Part shown: positions 16,621 through 29,050 of the stretch, piece by piece
How positions within the stretch are numbered: position 1 is the stretch's first letter
Layout of the letters: each line of letters starts with the position of its first letter
Assembly (NCBI GenBank): GCA_949878435.1
Contig: CATLAK010000019.1
Location: forward strand, 1-64,000
Reading direction: 5' to 3'
Origin: an uncultured Lachnospiraceae bacterium
GTDB lineage: Bacteria; Bacillota; Clostridia; Lachnospirales; Lachnospiraceae
DNA length: 64,000 nt
Notes under the pieces: generated by a model
Told to the model about the DNA's origin: nothing
The model's input: only the letters and a program-made list of their open reading frames with translations
The model's database searches: none
Translations under genes and position numbers: made by a program

Positions 16621-17043
16621 ATGAGCAAAATGCAGAATCAGGATACGCGGCGGTCACTAGCGGCGTCGCAGATATATATTGAAGTTCTTGAGGCAGAAAT
16701 GTCCATTTGCAAAGTACAGGACCTCTCCTTGGCAGATTGGAAGTCCGATTTGTGTTTTACGGCAAAGACGGATGAAGAAAATTCATTGGTCTGTCAAACG
16801 AAAGCCGTGCCGGAGAATACATCCAAAAGAGATGACGGGTGGAAGATCATGAGAATCAGGGGAGTTTTAGATTTTTCGTTGATTGGAATACTCGCTGGCA
16901 TTTCAACGGAACTGGCAGACCATGAAATTGGGATTTTCGTCATTTCCACTTACAATACGGACTATATTCTTGTGAAAAGAAAGGATATGGGAAAAGCTCT
17001 GGAGGTTCTTGGCAAAAAGGGGTATCAGATCACTTCCAATTAA
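16621..17043 (+). CDS. ACT domain protein
   Basis: 140 residues. The second half (about 75-138) has the arrangement ILAGISTELADHEIGIFVISTYNTDYILVKR of the ACT/CASTOR-like amino-acid-binding fold. The N-terminal half is less conserved but could be a second degenerate ACT module. Small proteins of this type are thought to bind amino acids, with unknown downstream partners. It starts 57 bases after the AAA gene and its stop overlaps the convergent permease gene by four bases. Confidence 0.75.
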   Translation: MSKMQNQDTRRSLAASQIYIEVLEAEMSICKVQDLSLADWKSDLCFTAKTDEENSLVCQTKAVPENTSKRDDGWKIMRIRGVLDFSLIGILAGISTELADHEIGIFVISTYNTDYILVKRKDMGKALEVLGKKGYQITSN

Positions 17044-17696
17044 TATTCCTTTTTCACAAAAATAAGTACCGTCAGCGGATAGGACAACACAAATGCCAGC
17101 AGTGCGCATGCAAGCAAAATTCCAGCGGTTAAAATCAGCTGCAAGGTAGTCAGACCTGAACCAAGAAGCAGGTTGATTAGATTTACGATTACCATGAAAA
17201 TCGCTGTGGCGGAAAGGATGCTGATTATTATGATTGCTTCGCTTTTTTCCTCACCTCCCAGATAAAAAGAGGGGAAGAAAACGGCGCCCATAAAGAGGCT
17301 CAGACTGATGCCGGCGGTAAACAGCATGAGAATATCGGTGCTGCGGTCAAAGGGAAATCCGTGCAGGAGAATGGACAGGGTCACACAGATTCCGGCAAAT
17401 ACTATGCCGGTCAAAAGCCATGCCAGCAGGCTGATATAATAGCTTTTAATGATATCCGTTCTTTTTACGGGGACGGTCAGTTTATATTTTGCCCATTTGG
17501 AGGAATATTCTTTGCCAAGCCCGCTTATGGCATTGACGGAAAATCCCACCATGACTGACAGGGCATATCCAATCAAAAGGGATGGAATAGCGTTGTCTAC
17601 AGCAATCACGAAAATTCCCAGCAGAAACATGATGATTGAAAACAGTCCTGTATTAGCACGTACAGCGTAAAAATTGTTTTTGAGAAGTCCTTTCAT
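17040..17696 (-). CDS. ABC-2 type transporter permease
   Basis: 218 residues with about six membrane helices in the ABC-2 pattern. The segment SKWAKYKLTVPVKRTDIIKSYY is the amphipathic region found in YtrC/BcrB-like exporters. It starts within the last codons of the ATPase gene and pairs with it to form an exporter. The substrate is unknown. Homologous GntR-controlled systems respond to cell-envelope antibiotics in some Firmicutes, but nothing here shows that. It is the last gene of a three-gene operon on the minus strand. Confidence 0.85.
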   Translation of the reverse strand: MKGLLKNNFYAVRANTGLFSIIMFLLGIFVIAVDNAIPSLLIGYALSVMVGFSVNAISGLGKEYSSKWAKYKLTVPVKRTDIIKSYYISLLAWLLTGIVFAGICVTLSILLHGFPFDRSTDILMLFTAGISLSLFMGAVFFPSFYLGGEEKSEAIIIISILSATAIFMVIVNLINLLLGSGLTTLQLILTAGILLACALLAFVLSYPLTVLIFVKKEY

Positions 17697-18559
17697 ACTC
17701 GTTCCCCCTTTACCAGCAATAAAATCGTCTCATCAATTGAAACATGGTCTATGACGGCATCTTTATATTTCTTCCGGGCGGCGTTTCCGTCAGCCACCAG
17801 TACATCAATCTGAAAATCCCTTTTCCGGTAAGCAAGAATATCTGCGCGGTCCAGCGCAAGAAACTCTCTTTCCCTACAGCGCATGACAGCATAATGATAG
17901 ACCAGATCATTTCTGGAAACCGTCATAATCACTTTCCCGTCATGAATAAAGGTGATGTAATCCGCAATTTTTTCCAGGTCGCTTGTGATGTGGGAGGAGA
18001 GCAGGATAGAGTGGTCTTCTTCCTGCACAAATTCAAGAAATACATCCAACATCTCGTCCCGCATGATGGGATCTAAGCCGCTGGTCGCCTCGTCTAAAAT
18101 CAGCAGCTTCGGTCTGTGTGCCAAAGCGGCGGAAATTGCCAGCTTCATAGTCATACCTTTAGAATAGCTTTTGATCTTCTGGCGGGGAGGAAGATGGAAA
18201 TCATTTAAATATTTCCGGAACAAGGCATTGTCCCAGCTTTCATAAAAACCTTCCATGATTTTAGCCAGCTTTTCCGCAGTTAAATATCCGGGGAAATTGT
18301 CTCCGTCATAAACGATTCCGATTTTTTCCCGCATCTGTGTGTCGGCATCTGTCATTTCCGTGCCGAACAGCCGGACGGTGCCGCTGTCGCTGGCTATTGT
18401 ATTAAGGATACATCCAATCGTCGTGGTCTTGCCTGCGCCGTTTTCGCCGACGAATCCCATAATCGCTCCATAGGGCAAAGAGAAAGAGACGTTATCCAGC
18501 CTAAAATCTGATTTGGAAAATGATTTGCAAACGTCTTTTAATTCCAGAATAGGTTCCAT
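17693..18559 (-). CDS. ABC transporter ATP-binding protein
   Basis: 288 residues from the ATG that follows AGGAGG by nine bases. The longer track ORF begins inside the GntR gene without a site. Walker A is GENGAGKTT, the signature is SYSKGMTMKLAIS and Walker B is LLILDEATSGLDP; the H-loop histidine is in LLSSHITSD. It powers the adjacent permease. A C-terminal extension of about 75 residues, ending in LLLVKGERV, is typical of the YtrB/BcrA group. The start lies one base after the GntR stop, indicating tight coupling. Confidence 0.92.
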   Translation of the reverse strand: MEPILELKDVCKSFSKSDFRLDNVSFSLPYGAIMGFVGENGAGKTTTIGCILNTIASDSGTVRLFGTEMTDADTQMREKIGIVYDGDNFPGYLTAEKLAKIMEGFYESWDNALFRKYLNDFHLPPRQKIKSYSKGMTMKLAISAALAHRPKLLILDEATSGLDPIMRDEMLDVFLEFVQEEDHSILLSSHITSDLEKIADYITFIHDGKVIMTVSRNDLVYHYAVMRCREREFLALDRADILAYRKRDFQIDVLVADGNAARKKYKDAVIDHVSIDETILLLVKGERV

Positions 18560-18560
18560 C

Positions 18561-18938
18561 TTATTCATCCTCCTGATAAAATAAGGATAGCAGCTCAATC
18601 AGCTTTGCAAGCGGAATGTTACTCATGCGTCCGATTTCTGCGGCGGACTGTAAATGTTCCTCTGCGATACGCTGCTGCTGCTCCTGATAAAATTCTTTGT
18701 TCTGTGCGGATACGAAGCTGCCTCTGCCCACCGTTGTCTCGATAAATCCATCCCTTTGCAAGTCCTCGTAAGCCTTCTGAACAGTGATGACGCTTACGTG
18801 GATCGACTTTGCTAGGGCACGCATGGAGGGAATTGAGTCGCCGGCTTGTAATTCGCCGCTCATAATCATGGCTTTGATCTGTGAAGTAATCTGTTCGTAG
18901 ATTGGTTTGCTTACATTGTTGCTTATGATGATTTCCAC
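18561..18938 (-). CDS. GntR family regulator, YtrA subfamily
   Basis: 125 residues: an N-terminal winged helix of the GntR class (YEQITSQIKAMIMSGELQAGDSIPSMRALAKSIHVSVITVQKAYEDL in the expected order) and a short C-terminal dimerisation tail. It lacks a large effector domain, as in YtrA. It is the first gene of an ABC exporter operon and probably represses it. The promoter carries an obvious operator at its start point. The effector is unknown. Confidence 0.93.
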   Translation of the reverse strand: MEIIISNNVSKPIYEQITSQIKAMIMSGELQAGDSIPSMRALAKSIHVSVITVQKAYEDLQRDGFIETTVGRGSFVSAQNKEFYQEQQQRIAEEHLQSAAEIGRMSNIPLAKLIELLSLFYQEDE

Positions 18939-18961: not shown

Positions 18962-18986
18962 AATGTACTTAATGTACAAGTACATT
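18962..18986. promoter_or_regulatory. GntR/YtrA-type operator
   Basis: AATGTACTT (18962-18970), AATGTAC, then AAGTACATT (18978-18986): a perfect 9-bp inverted repeat around a 7-base spacer. It covers the transcription start region and touches the -10 of the GntR promoter. This is the expected position for autorepression. Confidence 0.8.
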
Positions 18987-19011
18987 ATATCAACTTTTTA
19001 TATAATGTCAA
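18984..19011 (-). promoter_or_regulatory. Consensus promoter of the GntR-ABC operon
   Basis: On the minus strand TTGACA (19006-19011), 16 bases and TATAAT (18984-18989), a perfect match in both boxes. The strong boxes together with the operator suggest tight repression. Confidence 0.88.
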
Positions 19012-19024
19012 GATATTAAAATTC

Positions 19025-19054
19025 TTGACACATGGAGTGAGAAAGCCACATAAT
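19025..19054 (+). promoter_or_regulatory. Promoter of the YD-like/Hsp70/J-domain operon
   Basis: TTGACA (19025-19030), 18 bases and CATAAT (19049-19054). The track starts an ORF at TTG 19025, but that codon is the -35 box. The promoter is back to back with the GntR promoter, with 13 bases between the -35 boxes, so the GntR operator could influence both. Confidence 0.6.
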
Positions 19055-19117: not shown

Positions 19118-20430
19118 ATGAGTAAGTTGAGAAGACATGATGAAGAATCGTCTGGGGAAAAGATAATAAAATATTTATCCCGTGTTGTGGTTGTTGCAGT
19201 GCTTTTAGCCGCAATGCGGCATCTGGGATGGTTGGACATGATGCAGGGAAAAGAAAAAGATACGGATACAGCAGTTCATTCACTGCCGGTAGATGCACAT
19301 GCATTTATAGATCCGCCTCAACGGGTCGAGATAGATGACAGGAGCATTTATGCTGAAGATGAGACGCTGGGTCTCTATCAATATACATGCTGCTATTATG
19401 ATGGGGATAAGCTCTTGGCGGAAGCGGATTATAATGCAGGGGGCAGGCTGACGGATTTTAAATGCTGGGAATATGATACAGCAGGAAATGTGTGCCTGGA
19501 GCAGACGCTTATACGGATGAAGGATGTGCGGGTGTCAAGTATTCCTATCTTAATGCTGAGTGGCGGGAAGAGAAAATTTCCTCTCACTACGTTTCACGCA
19601 TAGAATATCTAGCAGATGAGGCAGGCAATCCCCTGTGTGTTTTTAAACTGAAAGCTGCGGATGAAAATGTGCCGGATGAGGTTTGGAAAGTGCAGTGGGC
19701 AAAACGGAATGGTTATATGGTGAACTATGTTCAATATTATGATAGGTATATGCAGAACAGGGGTGATGATTATTGGTATCAATTTGCAGATAGACCGCAT
19801 ATGGAACAGATCAATTGGTATGAGTATAATTCCGAGACAGGCGAAAAAAATCATATTTTGCAGTTGAGTTATAGGTGGCAGAGAGACCAAGAAGCGTTCG
19901 TCGTATCGCCTCCCTTTTACCGGGTGTGGAACGAGGGGGATTTTCTTTTGCAGGAGATGAACTATTCAGATGGGGGGCTGGTATACTATAGTGCGCGTCA
20001 GTATGATGCTGATGGACGCCTGGCTGCCGAGATGGAATATGAGGTAAAGGAAGAAGAGATTTTCCGTACATTCCATCGTTATGAGTATCAAGAGGAAGAG
20101 AGAGTAGAGAAATATTCCTACCTCATACAAGGACAGGAATTTAGCCATTTGTTTGAAGAGGGCGAACGTATTTTGCTAGCTTTTTCATGTGAGGGCGTTC
20201 TTACGAAAATTAAAATGATGGATAGGTCGGGGGAATTATTGGAAAAGTATGAATTTTATGAAGCAGGTGAAAAAGAGGGGGAATTTAGAGGAATGTATGC
20301 AGGTACGGAAATGATTATAGGAGAAACAGCGATTTTACAGGAGCTTTCAAAGGAAGAAGAACGGATTAGATCGTCGGCAGGAATAGATTGGATGAGCTAT
20401 ATGTGGGAGGAGGGGTATTTATGGCAGTGA
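19118..20430 (+). pseudogene. YD-repeat-like membrane-anchored protein, frameshifted
   Basis: Two overlapping ORFs (19025-19603 and 19492-20430) form one protein interrupted by a -1 shift around 19490-19510. The likely start is ATG 19118. The first part has a membrane segment (about residues 20-37) and repeated motifs like YDTAGN and YNAGGR. The second continues with YLADEAGN and YDADGR, resembling Rhs/YD repeats. The reading frames join well at about NVCLEQ and DAYTDEG. No canonical slippery heptamer was seen, so mutation or sequence error is more likely than programmed shifting. The last codons overlap the Hsp70 start by ten bases. The function is not recognised; an extracellular role is inferred from the anchor. 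Confidence 0.65.
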
Positions 20431-22139
20431 TAGGAATTGACTTGGGAACGACAAACAGCCTTGCCAGTATCTGGCGGAATGGAAAGATTGAATTGATCCC
20501 CAATATCTTTGGGGAATATCTGACACCTTCCGTTGTCAGCTTCGGAGAAGATGGGGAAGTATATGTGGGCAAGGTGGCAAAGGAGCGGCTGATTACGGCG
20601 CCGTCCGTCACATTTGCAGAATTCAAGCGGAATATGGGGAGTAGTTATCGCTACGTTGCCAATGGGAAATATTATACGGCAGAAGATCTGTCTTCCTTTG
20701 TGCTGCGTCGGCTGAAAGAGGATGCGGAGGCTTATTTAGGAGAAGAAGTGACGGAGGCAGTTATAAGCGTTCCGGCATATTTTAACGATGACAAGAGGTG
20801 CGCTACCAAAAACGCGGGAAAGTTGGCGGGCTTAAACGTGGAGCGGCTGATCAATGAACCGTCTGCCGTGGCGTTGAAGCACCATATGGGAGTGGAAGAA
20901 ACAGAGACGTTTATTATCTTTGATTTCGGGGGCGGTACGCTGGATATTTCCCTTGTTGACGCTTTTGACAATCTGGTAGAGATTCAGGCGGTGTCGGGAG
21001 ACAATTATCTGGGCGGAAAAGATTTCAACGAAATCATAGCGGAGGATTTTTATAAAGAACATCATATGGTCAAGGATGATTTGACCAAAGAAGAGCAGGG
21101 GATTATTTTAAAGGAAGCGGAGATACTCAAGAGAGAGCTTACCAATCAAGATAAGGCGGAGCGAAAGGTATACATTCAGGATCGGGAATATGTAATGCAG
21201 ATGACGAACCAGCATTTGATACATATAAGTATGGAACTGTTTAAGCGCATGTCCATACCGATCAGGAGAGTCATCAATGACAGTGGCATGCAGATGGAGG
21301 ATATCGATAAGCTTATTCTGGTAGGCGGTTCTTCCAAAATGCCGGTGGTGGAGCAGTATCTGAAAAGTCTGGTTACTATTCCGGTGGTTAAGGATTTAAG
21401 CCCTGATGAAAGCATTGCTGCGGGGGTGGGGATCGCTGCCGCAATTAAGGAACGCGTTGGGGATGTGAAGGACATGATACTGGCGGATATTTGTCCATTT
21501 TCTCTGGGAACAGAGATTTATGATGGCAGTTTCTCCCCAATTATTGAGAGGAATGATACGCTGCCATGTAGTCACACTAGAGAATATGTTACTGTAGAGG
21601 ACTATCAGACGGTAATGAAGTTTCCTATTTATCAGGGAGACAATATGATTGCGAGGGAAAATCTGCTGCTTGGAACGATGCAGGTGGTGGGACTGCCGCA
21701 GGAGCCAAGAGGAAAAGTCAAGGCAAGGATCACCTTTATGTATGACATTAATGGCATATTGGATATCAAGATTGTCAGCGGAGAACAGACGCTTCATCGT
21801 GTGATTATGAATAAAAAAATGGGACTTAGCGAAGCAGAACTGGAAAAACGCCTTAAGCAGCTGCGGGAGATGACGCTAAGTTCAATGGAGGATGAAAATG
21901 TCCATTATTTATTGGAAAAGGCGCAGCGCCTTTATCAGGAAAGCACTCCTTTGGCGAGGGCGTATCTTGCTGAACAGATTGCCAGATTTCGGGCAGTTAT
22001 GATGAAAGAACGCAATGCACGTATGCGGAGAGAAGCATGTGTACAGTTATCTGTATATTTGGAGGCAGTGGAAAGGAATAAATTTGATTTCCATGGTTTT
22101 GACGAATCTTTTTTCGAGGATGACAATGAAGAGGAATAA
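20421..22139 (+). CDS. hscC: HscC-type Hsp70 chaperone
   Basis: 572 residues from ATG 20421, which follows GGAGG. The long ORF start in the track lies inside the upstream gene. The nucleotide-binding domain is complete: IGIDLGTTNS (4-13), NEPSAVAL and DFGGGTLDIS. The segment LADICPFSLGTEI and then FSPIIERNDTLP match E. coli HscC closely from memory. The substrate-binding part is short (about 200 residues) and ends in EEE, without a DnaK-like EEVD-type tail. HscC is a specialised Hsp70 that works with a dedicated membrane J-protein. The J-domain gene directly downstream fits this pairing. It is not the housekeeping DnaK. Confidence 0.88.
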   Translation: MAVIGIDLGTTNSLASIWRNGKIELIPNIFGEYLTPSVVSFGEDGEVYVGKVAKERLITAPSVTFAEFKRNMGSSYRYVANGKYYTAEDLSSFVLRRLKEDAEAYLGEEVTEAVISVPAYFNDDKRCATKNAGKLAGLNVERLINEPSAVALKHHMGVEETETFIIFDFGGGTLDISLVDAFDNLVEIQAVSGDNYLGGKDFNEIIAEDFYKEHHMVKDDLTKEEQGIILKEAEILKRELTNQDKAERKVYIQDREYVMQMTNQHLIHISMELFKRMSIPIRRVINDSGMQMEDIDKLILVGGSSKMPVVEQYLKSLVTIPVVKDLSPDESIAAGVGIAAAIKERVGDVKDMILADICPFSLGTEIYDGSFSPIIERNDTLPCSHTREYVTVEDYQTVMKFPIYQGDNMIARENLLLGTMQVVGLPQEPRGKVKARITFMYDINGILDIKIVSGEQTLHRVIMNKKMGLSEAELEKRLKQLREMTLSSMEDENVHYLLEKAQRLYQESTPLARAYLAEQIARFRAVMMKERNARMRREACVQLSVYLEAVERNKFDFHGFDESFFEDDNEEE

Positions 22140-22201
22140 TCAGGAGAAAGCCGGCAAAACGGCATAAGAAGCTACGGAATCAAGGTGTTTGGAGGAAAAA
22201 T

Positions 22202-23293
22202 ATGAACATATGGGAACTGCTCGGCATTGCGCCTACGGCAGATATTGATAAGATCAAATCAGCTTACGCGAGACAGGCAAAGCTGTATCACCCGGAGGAA
22301 CATCCGGAGGAATTTTCAGCTTTACAAAATGCATATAAATCTGCAGTGCGGATGGCAAAGCGCCGGAATATAACGGCAGCGATTCCCCCAATGCCTGAGG
22401 AGGCGCCCGTGGTTCCCCCAATGCTTGAGGAGGCGCCCGAGGTTCCTCCGCAGTCGCAGGCGGAGAGAACGTTTGATTTCAGCGGTATAGATGTGTACGG
22501 GGATAAGGAACACTTTTTCAAGCAGTTTCTGCTGATTGCGAAGAACCCATATCTTAGGAATAACCTGATTGCATGGGACTATTATCTGAATCGGAAGGAT
22601 TTTGAGCATTTATTTCACGATACGGATTTCCGGATGGAATTTGTGCGCACGATATGTAAGCTTCCAGGTTGGCGGAGGAAGACGGTTTTATTTTTTGATA
22701 AATATTTGAAGCAATATCATACAGACGAGAACAGACCGGGTGATGGGAAATGGGAGACCAGCCTTCGCAGCTTTCTTATAAGGAAATTGCCTTGGCCCAG
22801 ATTGCCTGCCTTTTGTACGGACAGGTTTTGTACCCGGGAGGGGAAGACCTTTCAGAAAAAGATTCATTCCCAAATTAGCCGGTCATTGGGGCGGGAACTG
22901 GATTATGAAATGAGATCTGATTTGATAAAGTATTTGAAGTTATACCTTCCATGTGCCGAGTCGAAGGAGGACTGCATTGAGCGTATCCACAGCGGATGGA
23001 AATTCCAGCAGCTTGTGCTTTGGGGGGTGGTTTTTCTGTTTTGGCTTATAATGGCGGTATCGGCAGTCCGTTTCACAAAGGAGAAACAGGAGACGGCAAA
23101 GAGGATGGCTTATCTTGGGGAATTGTATGGCTCTGAATGGGAAACCTATACCAAGGAGCAGCAGGAGGCGCTGTGGGCGGAATATAATTACGACTGGGAG
23201 TCTGCCAAGGAGCAGATCGATGATGCGATGCAGCGTTATGAAGACTGGATTATGTATGTAAGGGAAGAGAGATATCGTTTATTCAGCAGGTGA
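22202..23293 (+). CDS. Membrane-anchored J-domain protein with HPE motif
   Basis: 363 residues. The N-terminal J-domain (1-50) begins NIWELLGIAPTADIDKIKSAYARQAK. The essential HPD tripeptide reads HPE (30-32). A proline/glutamate linker with two near-identical 30-bp repeats (22383-22442) follows. A long helical region extends to about 265, one membrane segment covers about 271-291, and a charged C-tail of about 70 residues ends the protein. Relatives such as DjlB/DjlC are the partners of HscC. The gene starts 62 bases after hscC. I infer that the pair acts at the membrane, possibly on the YD-like protein upstream. Whether HPE still stimulates ATP hydrolysis is the open point. Confidence 0.8.
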   Translation: MNIWELLGIAPTADIDKIKSAYARQAKLYHPEEHPEEFSALQNAYKSAVRMAKRRNITAAIPPMPEEAPVVPPMLEEAPEVPPQSQAERTFDFSGIDVYGDKEHFFKQFLLIAKNPYLRNNLIAWDYYLNRKDFEHLFHDTDFRMEFVRTICKLPGWRRKTVLFFDKYLKQYHTDENRPGDGKWETSLRSFLIRKLPWPRLPAFCTDRFCTREGKTFQKKIHSQISRSLGRELDYEMRSDLIKYLKLYLPCAESKEDCIERIHSGWKFQQLVLWGVVFLFWLIMAVSAVRFTKEKQETAKRMAYLGELYGSEWETYTKEQQEALWAEYNYDWESAKEQIDDAMQRYEDWIMYVREERYRLFSR

Positions 23294-23433: not shown

Positions 23434-24720
23434 ATGAGTGTACAGGTAGAAAAGTTAGAAAAAAGCATGGCGAAACTTACAATCGAAGTTTCCGCAGAAG
23501 AACTGGAAAAGGCATTACAGAATGCATTCTTAAAGAACAAGAATAAAATCAGCGTTCCCGGATTCAGAAAGGGCAAAGTGCCCCGTCAGATGATAGAGAA
23601 GATGTACGGACCGGAAATCTTTTATGAGGATGCAGCCAATGAACTGATTCCCGATGCCTATGAAAAGGCAGTGGAAGAGTGCGGAGAGGATATCGTGTCT
23701 TCCCCCACCATCGATGTGACCCAGATCAAAAAGGGCGAGCCCTTTATTTTTACCGCTGAGGTTGCCCTTAAACCGCCGGTAAAATTAGGAAAGTACAAAG
23801 GCGTCAAGGTTGAAAAAGCAGACACAGAAGTGACAGAGGAAGAAGTTGACGCAAAGATAGACCAGGAAAGAGAAAATAATGCCAGAAACATTGAAGTCAC
23901 AGACAGAGCGGTGAAGGACGGCGATATGACCGTGCTCGATTTTGAGGGCTTTGTTGACGGAACGGCATTTGAAGGCGGCAAAGGTGAAAACTACCCCCTG
24001 ACCATCGGTTCCGGCGCATTTATCCCCGGCTTTGAAGAGCAGCTAGTGGGCGCGCAGATTGGCGAGGAAGTGGAAGTGAACGTTACCTTCCCCGAAGACT
24101 ATCAGGCAGAAGAATTAAAGGGAAAAGCAGCCGTATTTAAGTGTACAATCAAGGAAATCAAAGAAAAAGAACTTCCTGAACTTGATGACGAGTTCGCATC
24201 TGAAGTTTCAGAATTTGACACCTTGGAAGAATACAAAGCAGATATCAGGGCTAAACTGACAGAAGAGAAAGCCAAAGAGGCAAAGGATGCCAAGGAGGCA
24301 GCAGTAATTGAAGCGATCGTGAACGATTCTGAAATGGAGATTCCCGAAGCGATGCTTGCCACACAGCAGAGACAGATGGTAGATGAATTTGCCCAGAGAA
24401 TCCAGATGCAGGGCTTATCTCTTGACCAGTACTTCCAGTTCACAGGCTCCACTTATGACAAGATGTTCGAGCAGGTAAAACCCCAGGCGGAGAAGAGAAT
24501 CAAGTCCAGACTGGTGCTTGAAGAGATCGTGAAGGCAGAAAAGATCGAAGCATCCGAGGAAGACTACGAAGAAGAATTAAAGGTAATGGCGGAAGCTTAT
24601 CAGATGGAAGTAGACAAGGTAAAAGAAATGCTTCCTGAAAAGAGCGTGTCTCAGATTAAGGCAGATATTGCAGTGAGAAAAGCAGCTGAATTTGCAGTAG
24701 AAAACGCAAAAGAAAAATAA
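23434..24720 (+). CDS. tig: Trigger factor, ribosome-associated chaperone
   Basis: 428 residues, a typical length. The N-terminal ribosome-binding domain contains [18 protein letters not shown] (about 47-64, the GFRxGxxP signature). A central FKBP-type prolyl isomerase domain (about 150-250, with [20 protein letters not shown]) and a C-terminal helical cradle follow. It binds nascent chains at the exit tunnel. The ATG follows AAGGAGG. The clpP gene begins 38 bases later, the classic tig-clpP-clpX-lon order in Clostridia. Confidence 0.97.
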
Positions 24721-24758
24721 AAAATCATGTTTTGCAAGGCAGTAAGGAGGATGCAGCA

Positions 24759-25349
24759 ATGAGTTTAGTACCTTATGTCATTGAACAGACAAGTAGGGGA
24801 GAGCGTTCCTACGATATTTATTCAAGACTTTTAAAAGAAAGAATCATATTTTTGGGAGAAGAAGTCAATGAAGTGACAGCAAGCCTTATCGTAGCGCAGA
24901 TGCTGTTCTTAGAGGCGGAAGATCCGGAAAAGGATATCCAGTTTTATATCAACAGCCCCGGCGGAAGCGTAACGGCGGGGATGGCGATTTATGACACGAT
25001 GCAGTATATCAAATGTGACGTATCCACCAACTGTATCGGCATGGCAGCCAGCATGGGCGCATTCCTTCTGGCAGGAGGCGCTAAAGGCAAGAGGCTTGCG
25101 CTCCCCAATGCGGAAGTGATGATTCATCAGCCTTTAGGCGGCGCTCAGGGGCAGGCTACGGAAATTGAGATTGCAGCCAAACATATTCTGCATACAAAAG
25201 AAAAATTAAATAAGATATTGGCAGAAAACACAGGTAAAGACTATGATGTGATTGCGGCAGACACAGAAAGAGATAACTGGATGACTGCCGAGGAAGCGAT
25301 GGAATATGGTTTGATTGACAGAGTTCTTTACAAGCGTTCTGACAATTAA
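24759..25349 (+). CDS. clpP: ATP-dependent Clp protease proteolytic subunit
   Basis: 196 residues from ATG 24759, seven bases after AAGGAGG; the track start at 24732 is a TTG upstream of that site. Catalytic triad: Ser98 in GMAASMGAF, His123 in MIHQPLGG and Asp172 in TERDNW. It forms the tetradecameric chamber fed by ClpX. It lies 18 bases before clpX, with which it is surely co-transcribed. Confidence 0.97.
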
Positions 25350-25367
25350 CAGGTAAGAGGTAAGAAG

Positions 25368-26621
25368 ATGGCAGGAAAAAGTTCTGACAACATCAGGTGT
25401 TCTTTTTGTAATAAGACACAGGATCAGGTAAGAAAAATGATAGCAGGTCCCGCGGGCGTGTATATCTGTGATGAGTGCGTTGAAATATGTGCTGATATTG
25501 TAGAAGAAGAATATGAGGAAGAAATCGAAGAGACAGAACTTGATATTAATCTGTTAAAACCAGTGGAAATCAAGGATTTTCTGGATGACTATGTAATTGG
25601 TCAGGAGGATGCCAAAAAGGTTCTTGCGGTTGCCGTGTACAATCATTACAAGAGAGTCACAGCACCTAAGGATATGGATGATGTGGAACTTCAAAAGAGC
25701 AACATCATCATGATCGGACCTACCGGTTCGGGAAAGACCTACCTGGCACAGACCTTGGCGAAGATTATCAATGTGCCCTTTGCCATTGCGGACGCCACCA
25801 CACTTACCGAGGCGGGATATGTGGGGGAGGATGTGGAGAACATTCTTCTTAAGCTGATCCAGGCGGCGGATTATGATGTGGAACGTGCACAGTTAGGAAT
25901 CATTTACATCGATGAGATTGATAAAATCACTAAAAAGAGTGAGAATGTCTCTATCACCAGGGACGTATCCGGCGAAGGTGTACAGCAGGCGCTCCTTAAG
26001 ATTATTGAGGGGACGGTGGCAAGCGTACCGCCTCAGGGAGGCAGAAAGCATCCGCATCAGGAGCTGATTCAGGTGGATACTTCCAATATTTTATTCATCT
26101 GCGGCGGAGCCTTTGATGGTTTGGAAAAAATCGTTGAGAACAGGCTGAACCGTAATTCCATCGGTTTTGATGCGGAGATCGCAAGCAAAAACAATCGGGA
26201 GATCAGTGAGGTACTAAAAGAAGTGACCCCTCAGGACTTGGTGAAGTTTGGACTGATACCGGAATTTGTGGGGCGCGTGCCCATCAATGTATCACTGGAA
26301 GGACTGGATGAAAAGGCGCTTTACAGGATCCTTACGGAGCCAAGAAGCGCGCTGATCAAGCAGTACCAGAAGCTGTTTGACTTTGACGAAGTCAAGTTAA
26401 GCTTTGAAAAAGATGCAATTGAGTCTATTGCAAAGCAGGCATTTGAACGTAAGACGGGAGCCAGGGGACTTCGTTCCATCATGGAGAAAGCGATGATGGA
26501 TGTGATGTATCAGATCCCTTCGGATGAAACAATAGAAGAATGCGTTATTACAAAAGGAGCGGTAGAAGGTACAAGTAAACCTTTATTGATACATCGTGAA
26601 GTAATGCGTAAGGCCAGATAA
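25368..26621 (+). CDS. clpX: ATP-dependent Clp protease ATP-binding subunit ClpX
   Basis: 417 residues. An N-terminal C4 zinc-binding domain ([15 protein letters not shown]...CDEC, about 11-40) precedes the AAA+ unfoldase. Walker A is [12 protein letters not shown], Walker B is [10 protein letters not shown] and the pore loop is in GYVGEDVEN. The IGF-type ClpP-docking loop region is present as NSIGF. It unfolds tagged proteins into ClpP. A clear terminator follows immediately after the stop. Confidence 0.97.
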
Positions 26622-26623
26622 GA

Positions 26624-26648
26624 AATGCCGCCGACAGGCGGCATTTTG
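26624..26648 (+). terminator. Terminator after clpX
   Basis: AATGCCGCC (26624-26632) pairs with GGCGGCATT (26637-26645) over a GACA loop, followed by TTG. A 9-bp GC-rich stem, short T-run. It probably reduces readthrough into lon. Confidence 0.78.
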
Positions 26649-26689
26649 CGTAAGAGTGCTTTAAAGCATTGTGAGAGGAAATATAGTGA

Positions 26690-29050
26690 ATGAGTGAGAG
26701 AAATGAAGAAACGAGGCAGATTCTTACGATGCCAGTCATTCCCCTTCGCGGGATGACGATTCTTCCAGGAACGGTCATCCATTTTGACCTGAATAAGGAA
26801 AAATCCATGCAGGCATTAGAGTATGCAATGATAAAGGGCGGAAAACTTTTCCTGACAGCCCAGAAAGATCCGGGAGTTGAAACGCCGGGGGAAGAGCAGC
26901 TTTACAAAACAGGAACCATTGCGGCAGTTAAGCAGATCACAAAGCTTCCCAACCAGATTGTAAGAGTATTGGTGGAGGGAATCAGGCGGGGAATCCTGCT
27001 TAAGCTCAGTGGGGAAAACGGAAAATTCCTTGAAGCGGATCTGGAAGCAGTGGATGAGGAGAAGGAACGGGAACAGATAAGCGGGATTCAGGAGGAGGCA
27101 ATGCTCAGACAGATTAAGGAGCACTTTGCCATCTTTGCTGCCCATTACCCTAAGATTGACAAAAATGCAGTGCACAGATATGCCCAGATCAAGAACATCG
27201 GCAGTCTGCTGGATCAGATTGCAATGAATCTCCCCATGAATTATGAAAAAAAGCAGCAGGTTTTAGAAGCTGTTTCCATAAAAGAGCGGTATGATATCTT
27301 ATGTGAACATTTATTAAATGAGATTGAAATCGCTAAGGCAAGAGAGGAATTGACCCATAACGTTAAGGAGAGAGTGGATAAAAATCAAAGAACTTATCTT
27401 TTGAGAGAGCAGCTCCATTATATCAGGCAGGAACTGGGGGAAGAGAGTTCCTTTTCAGATACCGACCAGTTTGAGGAGGCGTTAGAGAGCCTTATGGCGT
27501 CGGAAGAGGTGAAGGCAAAGATAAGAAAGGAGATCACACGGTTTAAAAATCTGTCGGGAAGCAGTTCGGAGAGCGCGGTGGAGCGTGCTTATATTGAAAC
27601 GCTTTTAGAACTGCCATGGGACAAGGCTTCTAAAGACAATGAAAGCATGAGTCGGGCGAAGGAGATTCTCAACAAGGACCACTATGGGCTGGATCAGGTG
27701 AAAGAACGGATCTTGGAGTTCTTGGCAGTGCGCTGCCTGACCAGCAAAGGGGAAAGCCCCATGATATGCCTGGTGGGACCGCCGGGAACCGGAAAGACGT
27801 CCATTGCAAAGAGCGTTGCCAAAGCGCTTGATAAGAAGTATATCAGAATCTGCCTAGGCGGCGTCAGGGATGAGGCGGAAATCAGGGGACACCGCAGGAC
27901 TTATGTTGGCGCGATGCCGGGGCGGATCGCTGCAGGAATCAAGCAGGCGGGGGTAAAAAATCCGCTGATGCTGTTAGATGAGATTGACAAGGTGAGCAAT
28001 GATTATAAGGGAGACACCTTCTCAGCGCTGCTAGAAGTGCTGGACGGGGAACAGAATGTGAGATTCCGGGATCATTATGTGGAAATTCCCCTTGACCTTT
28101 CGGAGGTTTTATTCATTGCAACCGCCAATACCACCCAGACGATTCCCAGACCTCTTTTGGACCGTATGGAAATCATCGAGGTGAACAGTTATACAGAAAA
28201 TGAGAAATTCCACATTGCAAAGGAACATCTCCTTGGCAAGCAGTTGGAAAAGAATGGTCTGGACAGACAGATGCTTTCGGTTCAGGATGGCGCCCTTAAG
28301 AATATCATCACCTATTACACAAAGGAAGCCGGCGTCAGAGAACTGGAGCGCAAGATCGGGGACATCTGCCGCAAGGCGGCAAAGGAAATTCTGGAGATAC
28401 GGGAAGCAGGAGATGCGCAGGAAAAAATCAAAGTGACTGCTTCCAATCTTGACAAATATTTAGGGAAAAGAAAGTATAGTCTGGATAAGGCAGATAAAGA
28501 GCCCCAGACAGGGATTGTGCGCGGACTTGCATGGACCAGCGTGGGCGGCGATACGCTGCAGATAGAAGTCAATGTGATGCCTGGAAAGGGGGAAATCGAG
28601 CTTACCGGGCAGATGGGTGACGTGATGAAGGAATCTGCCCTGATCGGCATCAGTTATGTGAGGTCCATTGGCAGGGAAAATCATATTGATCCTGAAATGT
28701 TCAAAGAGAATGATTTTCACTTACATATCCCTGAAGGCGCTGTTCCAAAGGATGGTCCGTCAGCCGGCGTGACCATGGCGACCGCTCTTTTTTCAGCTAT
28801 TACGGACCGGAAGGTGCGCAGCGATCTGGCAATGACTGGAGAGATCACGCTTAGGGGAAGGGTGCTGCCGGTTGGCGGATTGAAGGAGAAGATTCTGGCA
28901 GCCAAGATGGCAGGCATCAAAGAAGTGCTGGTGCCCTTTGAGAATAAGAAGGATATAGAAGAGATTTCCCAGGAAATTAAAGAAGGACTTACAATCACCC
29001 ATGTAAAGACGATGAAGGAAGTCTTAAAGCATGCGCTGCTTAAGGAGTGA
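26690..29050 (+). CDS. lon: ATP-dependent protease Lon
   Basis: 786 residues, standard LonA. An N-terminal substrate-binding domain (about 1-200) with MPVIPLRGMTILPGTV opens the protein. A coiled-coil, the AAA+ module (GPPGTGKTSIAK and LLDEIDKVSND) and the C-terminal serine-lysine protease (PKDGPSAGVTMATAL) follow. It degrades damaged and regulatory proteins in the cytoplasm. Its stop lies four bases before the engB start. Confidence 0.97.
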   Translation: MSERNEETRQILTMPVIPLRGMTILPGTVIHFDLNKEKSMQALEYAMIKGGKLFLTAQKDPGVETPGEEQLYKTGTIAAVKQITKLPNQIVRVLVEGIRRGILLKLSGENGKFLEADLEAVDEEKEREQISGIQEEAMLRQIKEHFAIFAAHYPKIDKNAVHRYAQIKNIGSLLDQIAMNLPMNYEKKQQVLEAVSIKERYDILCEHLLNEIEIAKAREELTHNVKERVDKNQRTYLLREQLHYIRQELGEESSFSDTDQFEEALESLMASEEVKAKIRKEITRFKNLSGSSSESAVERAYIETLLELPWDKASKDNESMSRAKEILNKDHYGLDQVKERILEFLAVRCLTSKGESPMICLVGPPGTGKTSIAKSVAKALDKKYIRICLGGVRDEAEIRGHRRTYVGAMPGRIAAGIKQAGVKNPLMLLDEIDKVSNDYKGDTFSALLEVLDGEQNVRFRDHYVEIPLDLSEVLFIATANTTQTIPRPLLDRMEIIEVNSYTENEKFHIAKEHLLGKQLEKNGLDRQMLSVQDGALKNIITYYTKEAGVRELERKIGDICRKAAKEILEIREAGDAQEKIKVTASNLDKYLGKRKYSLDKADKEPQTGIVRGLAWTSVGGDTLQIEVNVMPGKGEIELTGQMGDVMKESALIGISYVRSIGRENHIDPEMFKENDFHLHIPEGAVPKDGPSAGVTMATALFSAITDRKVRSDLAMTGEITLRGRVLPVGGLKEKILAAKMAGIKEVLVPFENKKDIEEISQEIKEGLTITHVKTMKEVLKHALLKE

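Follow-up and report, generated by a model that had tools for sequence, protein, structure and literature searches.

Which clients the HscC-type Hsp70s serve is a question that has stood since 2002. For HscC itself the available review gives only Cd2+ and UV phenotypes, with membrane clients as a guess (PMC8215388). The DNA analysed here, a stretch of 64,000 nucleotides from an uncultured Lachnospiraceae bacterium to which we refer as the window, raises this question in a particular form: at 19118–23293 its plus strand carries a YD-like gene, an Hsp70 gene and a J gene, in that order. The original prediction for this locus was that the YD-like protein is a client of the two chaperones or that these serve its folding or export. 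We ask what holds the three genes together and what the YD-like protein may be to the chaperone pair.

The packing of the three genes in a single orientation is confirmed by the coordinates, and the Hsp70 start lies inside the end of the YD-like gene as had been described: the ATG at 20421 falls within the final codons of the YD frame, whose stop is at 20430. The Hsp70 gene (20421–22139, plus strand, 572 aa) keeps a strong Shine-Dalgarno sequence of its own, GGAGGAGG, and is followed by the gene for the membrane J-domain protein (22202–23293, plus strand, 363 aa). The claim of a promoter ahead of the three genes also holds, in that a putative sigma-70-type promoter (TTGACA-18-CATAAT, 11/12 consensus) is located at 19025–19054 on the plus strand, and in the alignment its -35 and -10 elements and near-equal spacing are retained in two congeners (loci L035 and L036). 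Immediately 3' of the cassette, at 23434–29050, the inspected translations correspond to trigger factor, clpP, clpX and lon; these genes are also found downstream in both congeners and not in the other cassette loci. On the minus strand, a promoter with 12/12 consensus (18984–19011) faces a GntR-type regulator and an ABC transporter (17040–18938), neither of which adjoins the cassette in either congener. No CIRCE heat-shock site was found within the window, and PADLOC returned no match to a known defence system.

The YD-like gene of the window is broken. Its 5' piece (19118–19603, plus strand) opens with the ATG at 19118, encodes the N-terminal membrane anchor and the first YD motifs according to its translation, and ends with a stop at 19603, while the 3' piece (from about 19510 to 20430, plus strand), recognized by homology to intact copies, is in a different frame and remains open to the stop that overlaps the Hsp70 start. 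Two congeneric genomes (G211, locus L035, and G209, locus L036) have the gene as a single intact frame of 474–478 aa that ends exactly at the Hsp70 start. The first piece is 51–56% identical to the N-termini of these intact homologues and the second is 54% identical to their residues ~166–470. A MAFFT alignment of the window with L035 and L036 places the junction at 19508/19509, where 118 nt are absent from the window copy compared with both congeners, which rules out a one-base frameshift as the cause. Compared with the congeners, dN/dS is ~0.22–0.28 after the break and 0.32–0.42 before it; the low ratio after the break indicates that the break could be either a recent real deletion or an assembly error. 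The original prediction mentioned a strain with an intact copy, which suggests that the break had been noticed, but left the break itself unstated.

The Hsp70 matches PF00012 with E=5e-123. In a tree that includes DnaK, HscA and HscC of E. coli together with the DnaK encoded by the genome itself, the Hsp70 of the window groups, as do its relatives, with E. coli HscC and apart from DnaK and HscA (100/100); the HscC branch holds 42 rows, E. coli HscC among them (100/100), and being a long branch it has to be read with caution. Diagnostic features of HscC were taken from a review (PMC8215388). The length of 572 aa is within the 550–580 aa of HscC-type proteins, the GrpE signature (DnaK 290–295) is deleted as in E. 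coli HscC and present in the genome's own DnaK, and lid helix B is 11 residues shorter than in DnaK and equal to that of E. coli HscC. The branch position and these two deletions are shared with E. coli HscC and uphold the HscC-type assignment. Two further segments, DnaK 76–101 and the D211 loop, are missing from the window Hsp70 and equally from the genome's own DnaK. In contrast to E. coli HscC, the window clade does not have the 4–8 residue L1,2 loop insertion of the substrate domain; this insertion is also absent in L097 and is present in L037 and L045. Because of its absence, the window Hsp70 is, as judged from sequence, a variant on the HscC branch and not a textbook HscC.

The J-protein (PF00226, E=1.3e-8) consists of a J domain (residues 3–54), a disordered linker (60–93), a helical domain (95–255), a span at ~271–289 and a 74-residue tail; by hydrophobicity there is a single span, near residue 271 of 363. 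An AlphaFold model (pLDDT 83) shows the J domain, a loose linker, the helical domain, a long helix that includes the span and a final helix, and its J domain matches J-domain folds in a structure search. HPEE is found in 13/13 J-proteins of the clade and HPE in DjlB and DjlC of E. coli, where it is already known (PMC13254874), so the motif can be ruled out as a novelty. Together with the single span, these results support the description of an HPE membrane J-protein. DjlB and DjlC share with it the HPE motif and a membrane anchor, and in both systems J and Hsp70 are gene neighbours (PMC8215388, PMC13254874), but only 1 residue follows the span in DjlC and 7 in DjlB, compared with 42–76 in the clade, whose J-protein is therefore not tail-anchored. 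That this tail lies on the outer side is a prediction. The one named locus without a YD gene, L091, has the shortest J tail of the clade, from which the conserved EEAIDDVxERY-like motif is absent. In the sister pairs across Lachnospiraceae (L097–L110), many J-proteins have one span followed by 105–422 residues, while others stop at or near the last span. The long outer parts are variable, for example in L101:4583–6565 and L108:7990–9837, as though one outer domain could be exchanged for another. No Pfam family scored above cut-off in the outer parts scanned, and we do not claim a YD domain concealed in these tails, the scores being very weak (E 0.3–0.7). The genus of the window bacterium also contains a second group of HscC type (L042–L046, for example L045:4211–7639), which has a giant J-protein of ~1,115 aa directly upstream of Hsp70, with tetratricopeptide repeats and NPE replacing HPE.

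With respect to the YD-like protein, the label is weakly supported at the level of sequence and more clearly by the predicted fold. The RHS_repeat model matches 7/9 relatives (best 1.2e-4; the L035 and L036 members are under the Pfam cut-off) and TIGR01643 matches 2/9 (7e-6). The N-terminus is positively charged and is followed by one membrane span, after which a structure model (mean pLDDT 79) has about 27 beta strands. The top PDB matches of this model in Foldseek are Rhs effectors, teneurins and TcB/TcC, with E down to 6e-9 and TM-scores of only 0.1–0.24; these low TM-scores mean that the Rhs fold class is supported and a closed-shell shape is not, the modelled structure likely being an open shell. 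YD motifs and a predicted beta-rich fold (Rhs, teneurin, TcC) are thus common to the cassette protein and the Rhs/YD-repeat and teneurin-like proteins, from which it differs in being only 430–500 aa long, in its single N-terminal anchor, and in that neither a toxin domain nor a core/cleavage module was detected in the nine members scanned. The L095 protein (L095:339–1826) ends in a LysM domain (2.1e-8), which would speak for a location at the cell wall. From the positive-inside bias, the single member with LysM and what is usual for proteins of this type, we infer a membrane-anchored surface protein. On the whole, the original description as a YD-like membrane protein is upheld.

Scanning a single genome from each species gave 11 loci at 64–90% Hsp70 identity, ten of which include upstream sequence (L092 ends at a contig edge and is outside the ten). 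The order YD–Hsp70–J is found in nine of these ten (L085–L090 and L093–L095); in L091 the chaperone pair is present and the YD gene is missing. The YD stop is 0 nt from the Hsp70 start in five loci, overlaps it by 10–71 nt in three and leaves a gap of 15 nt in one. The intact trio occupies about six unrelated neighbourhoods, with likeness of the flanks only within the sets {window, L085, L086} and {L091, L093, L094}. The clearest example is the comparison of L087 with L088, which are 94% identical over 4,334 bases, from just before the promoter region to 17 bases past the J stop, and carry different genes on both sides beyond this block. A tRNA-Asn-like stretch lies upstream in both, and ARAGORN calls a gene only in L087. 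Identity of the YD proteins drops to about 20–25% between the most distant members, and an HMM built from close YD proteins only recovers distant ones at 1e-25 to 1e-31. Conservation of gene order in such distant genomes is far beyond chance, and the three genes appear to form one co-inherited unit. Rank correlations among the divergences of YD, J and Hsp70 are 0.85–0.90, as expected from shared ancestry alone. YD and J are fast-evolving (dN/dS ~0.2–0.3) and Hsp70 is slow (0.05–0.1); the values for YD, about 0.11–0.32, indicate purifying selection. No relatives of the J gene were found in the viral or plasmid collections searched, and carriage of the cassette by a phage or plasmid is rejected on this ground.

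The functional linkage of the trio proposed for this locus is upheld by these data as a feature of the clade. Its description as a self-contained cassette is correct for the tight trio in nine relatives but not for genome G022, where the clade Hsp70 is solitary (L096:6009–7727) and a related J gene, located elsewhere, overlaps with a YD-like gene that has diverged (L050:8277–10369).

HscC-type Hsp70s occur in 88 of the 397 genomes of the family that were sampled. At 29 non-orthologous HscC-type loci examined, nearly all of which have a J gene beside Hsp70, the YD gene is present in none; for the contrast with nine of ten, Fisher's test without correction for relatedness yields p = 5e-8. A 2-row YD profile applied to the 397 genomes identified the window's own YD as the only true one, and a 9-row profile added one further full-length homologue only, with no Hsp70 beside it. 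This homologue (G375, L139:6878–8251) is 457 aa long and has a membrane anchor, and neither Hsp70 nor J was found in the 15 kb examined. These profile searches reject the notion of a trio common across Lachnospiraceae. That relatives of the pair almost never have a YD-like neighbour, which would have made the link accidental, is true of the more distant loci but not of the orthologous ones; the link is real and confined to one sub-clade. Since the YD gene is absent from the 29 distant loci and two lineages have the pair without an intact YD, the YD-like protein is an add-on to an Hsp70/J pair that has other work. L091 and the 29 loci, where the pair occurs and YD does not, show that YD is dispensable for the basic job of the pair. 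We found no description of the YD–Hsp70–J trio in the literature, of which our coverage is incomplete.

The explanation that we rate highest, tentatively and at a little less than an even chance, is a membrane-anchored HscC-type machine in which the YD-like protein partners the J-protein from outside. In the cytoplasm the J domain would act together with Hsp70, and the body of YD would lie outside. The J-protein would serve as a hinge: YD would be contacted at the membrane by the span and the short tail on the outer side, and the HPE J domain would recruit Hsp70 to the contact spot and trigger its ATPase at that point. J-proteins of sister pairs often bear a large outer domain of their own (105–422 aa); in the window clade this portion is short, and YD, encoded by a gene of its own, may fill the role of the outer domain, as an adaptor or receptor that sets where the chaperone acts. 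The window genome would have lost, or be losing, the YD partner while keeping the chaperone pair. We prefer this partnership because only the J-protein has parts able to meet YD (the span and the outer tail), because YD stays with J in G022, where Hsp70 is elsewhere, because sister J-proteins often own an outer domain, and because the YD-less L091 has the shortest J tail with the motif gone. Each of these pointers taken singly is suggestive only. This applies in particular to the tail motif, where a single YD-less locus carries the argument and G022 counts against it, since that genome keeps a diverged YD although the motif is absent from its J tail.

A model in which the YD-like protein is a dedicated client, which Hsp70 and J would keep unfolded on the inner side of the membrane before its export and folding outside, ranks close behind; we consider it a plausible minority view. 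YD is the first gene with its stop abutting the Hsp70 start, the three-gene order is conserved, a membrane-anchored J-protein would be well placed for catching an exported protein, and an Rhs-like beta structure is a large one for a cell to fold. There is also an analogy in the isc operon, where HscA and HscB, a specialised Hsp70 and its own J-protein, are encoded near their dedicated partner IscU. The likeness to the window cassette is in the specialised Hsp70 and J-protein beside a partner gene (the hscBA gene order was checked); the differences are that HscA belongs to another Hsp70 branch, HscB is soluble and has HPD, and the partner is cytosolic. What weighs against a dedicated client is that an intact pair persists in L091, which has no YD, and in the window, where YD is broken, that YD is absent at the 29 sister loci, and that the 15 kb examined in G375 hold a full-length YD homologue and neither Hsp70 nor J.

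It is improbable, in our view, that YD is a mere passenger, added to the Hsp70/J pair on a single occasion, placed under the same promoter and moved with the pair as a mobile block in which it does no joint work. The sharp cassette ends with different flanks (L087/L088), the lack of YD in all sister pairs and the two YD losses (window and L091) would be compatible with such an origin. This becomes less likely because YD is under purifying selection and has kept its tight place beside Hsp70 down to about 20–25% YD identity, a long retention for a neighbour of no use; in addition, the J gene left no trace in the viral and plasmid collections searched. Least probable of all is general membrane-protein quality control by the pair, with YD as a co-regulated, stress-exposed surface protein and not a direct partner, which would agree with pairs kept without YD and with the membrane clients proposed for HscC in the review (PMC8215388) but does not account for the translational packing of the three genes or for their joint transfer.

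The partnership of YD with the J-protein can be extended to a bolder and rather doubtful proposal, namely a trans-envelope device in which the extracellular YD, via the membrane J-protein, would steer or switch the cytosolic Hsp70. HscC-type J-proteins would then bear interchangeable outer domains, either fused, as in the sister pairs, or separate, as with YD, and the chaperones would be receptor-coupled. In E. coli the neighbours of djlB and djlC are DUF1266 genes, in contrast to the YD gene co-encoded in the window clade.

In some gut bacteria an Hsp70, a membrane J-protein and a surface protein with a YD/Rhs fold are thus inherited as one block. The YD-like protein, whose place is held through relocation and deep divergence, is a concrete candidate partner for a poorly understood HscC-type Hsp70, and the partner idea is testable since a cultured strain, Bacterium 0.1xD8-71 (L089), has the cassette. 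The outer domains on sister J-proteins suggest that HscC-type Hsp70s work across or at the membrane.
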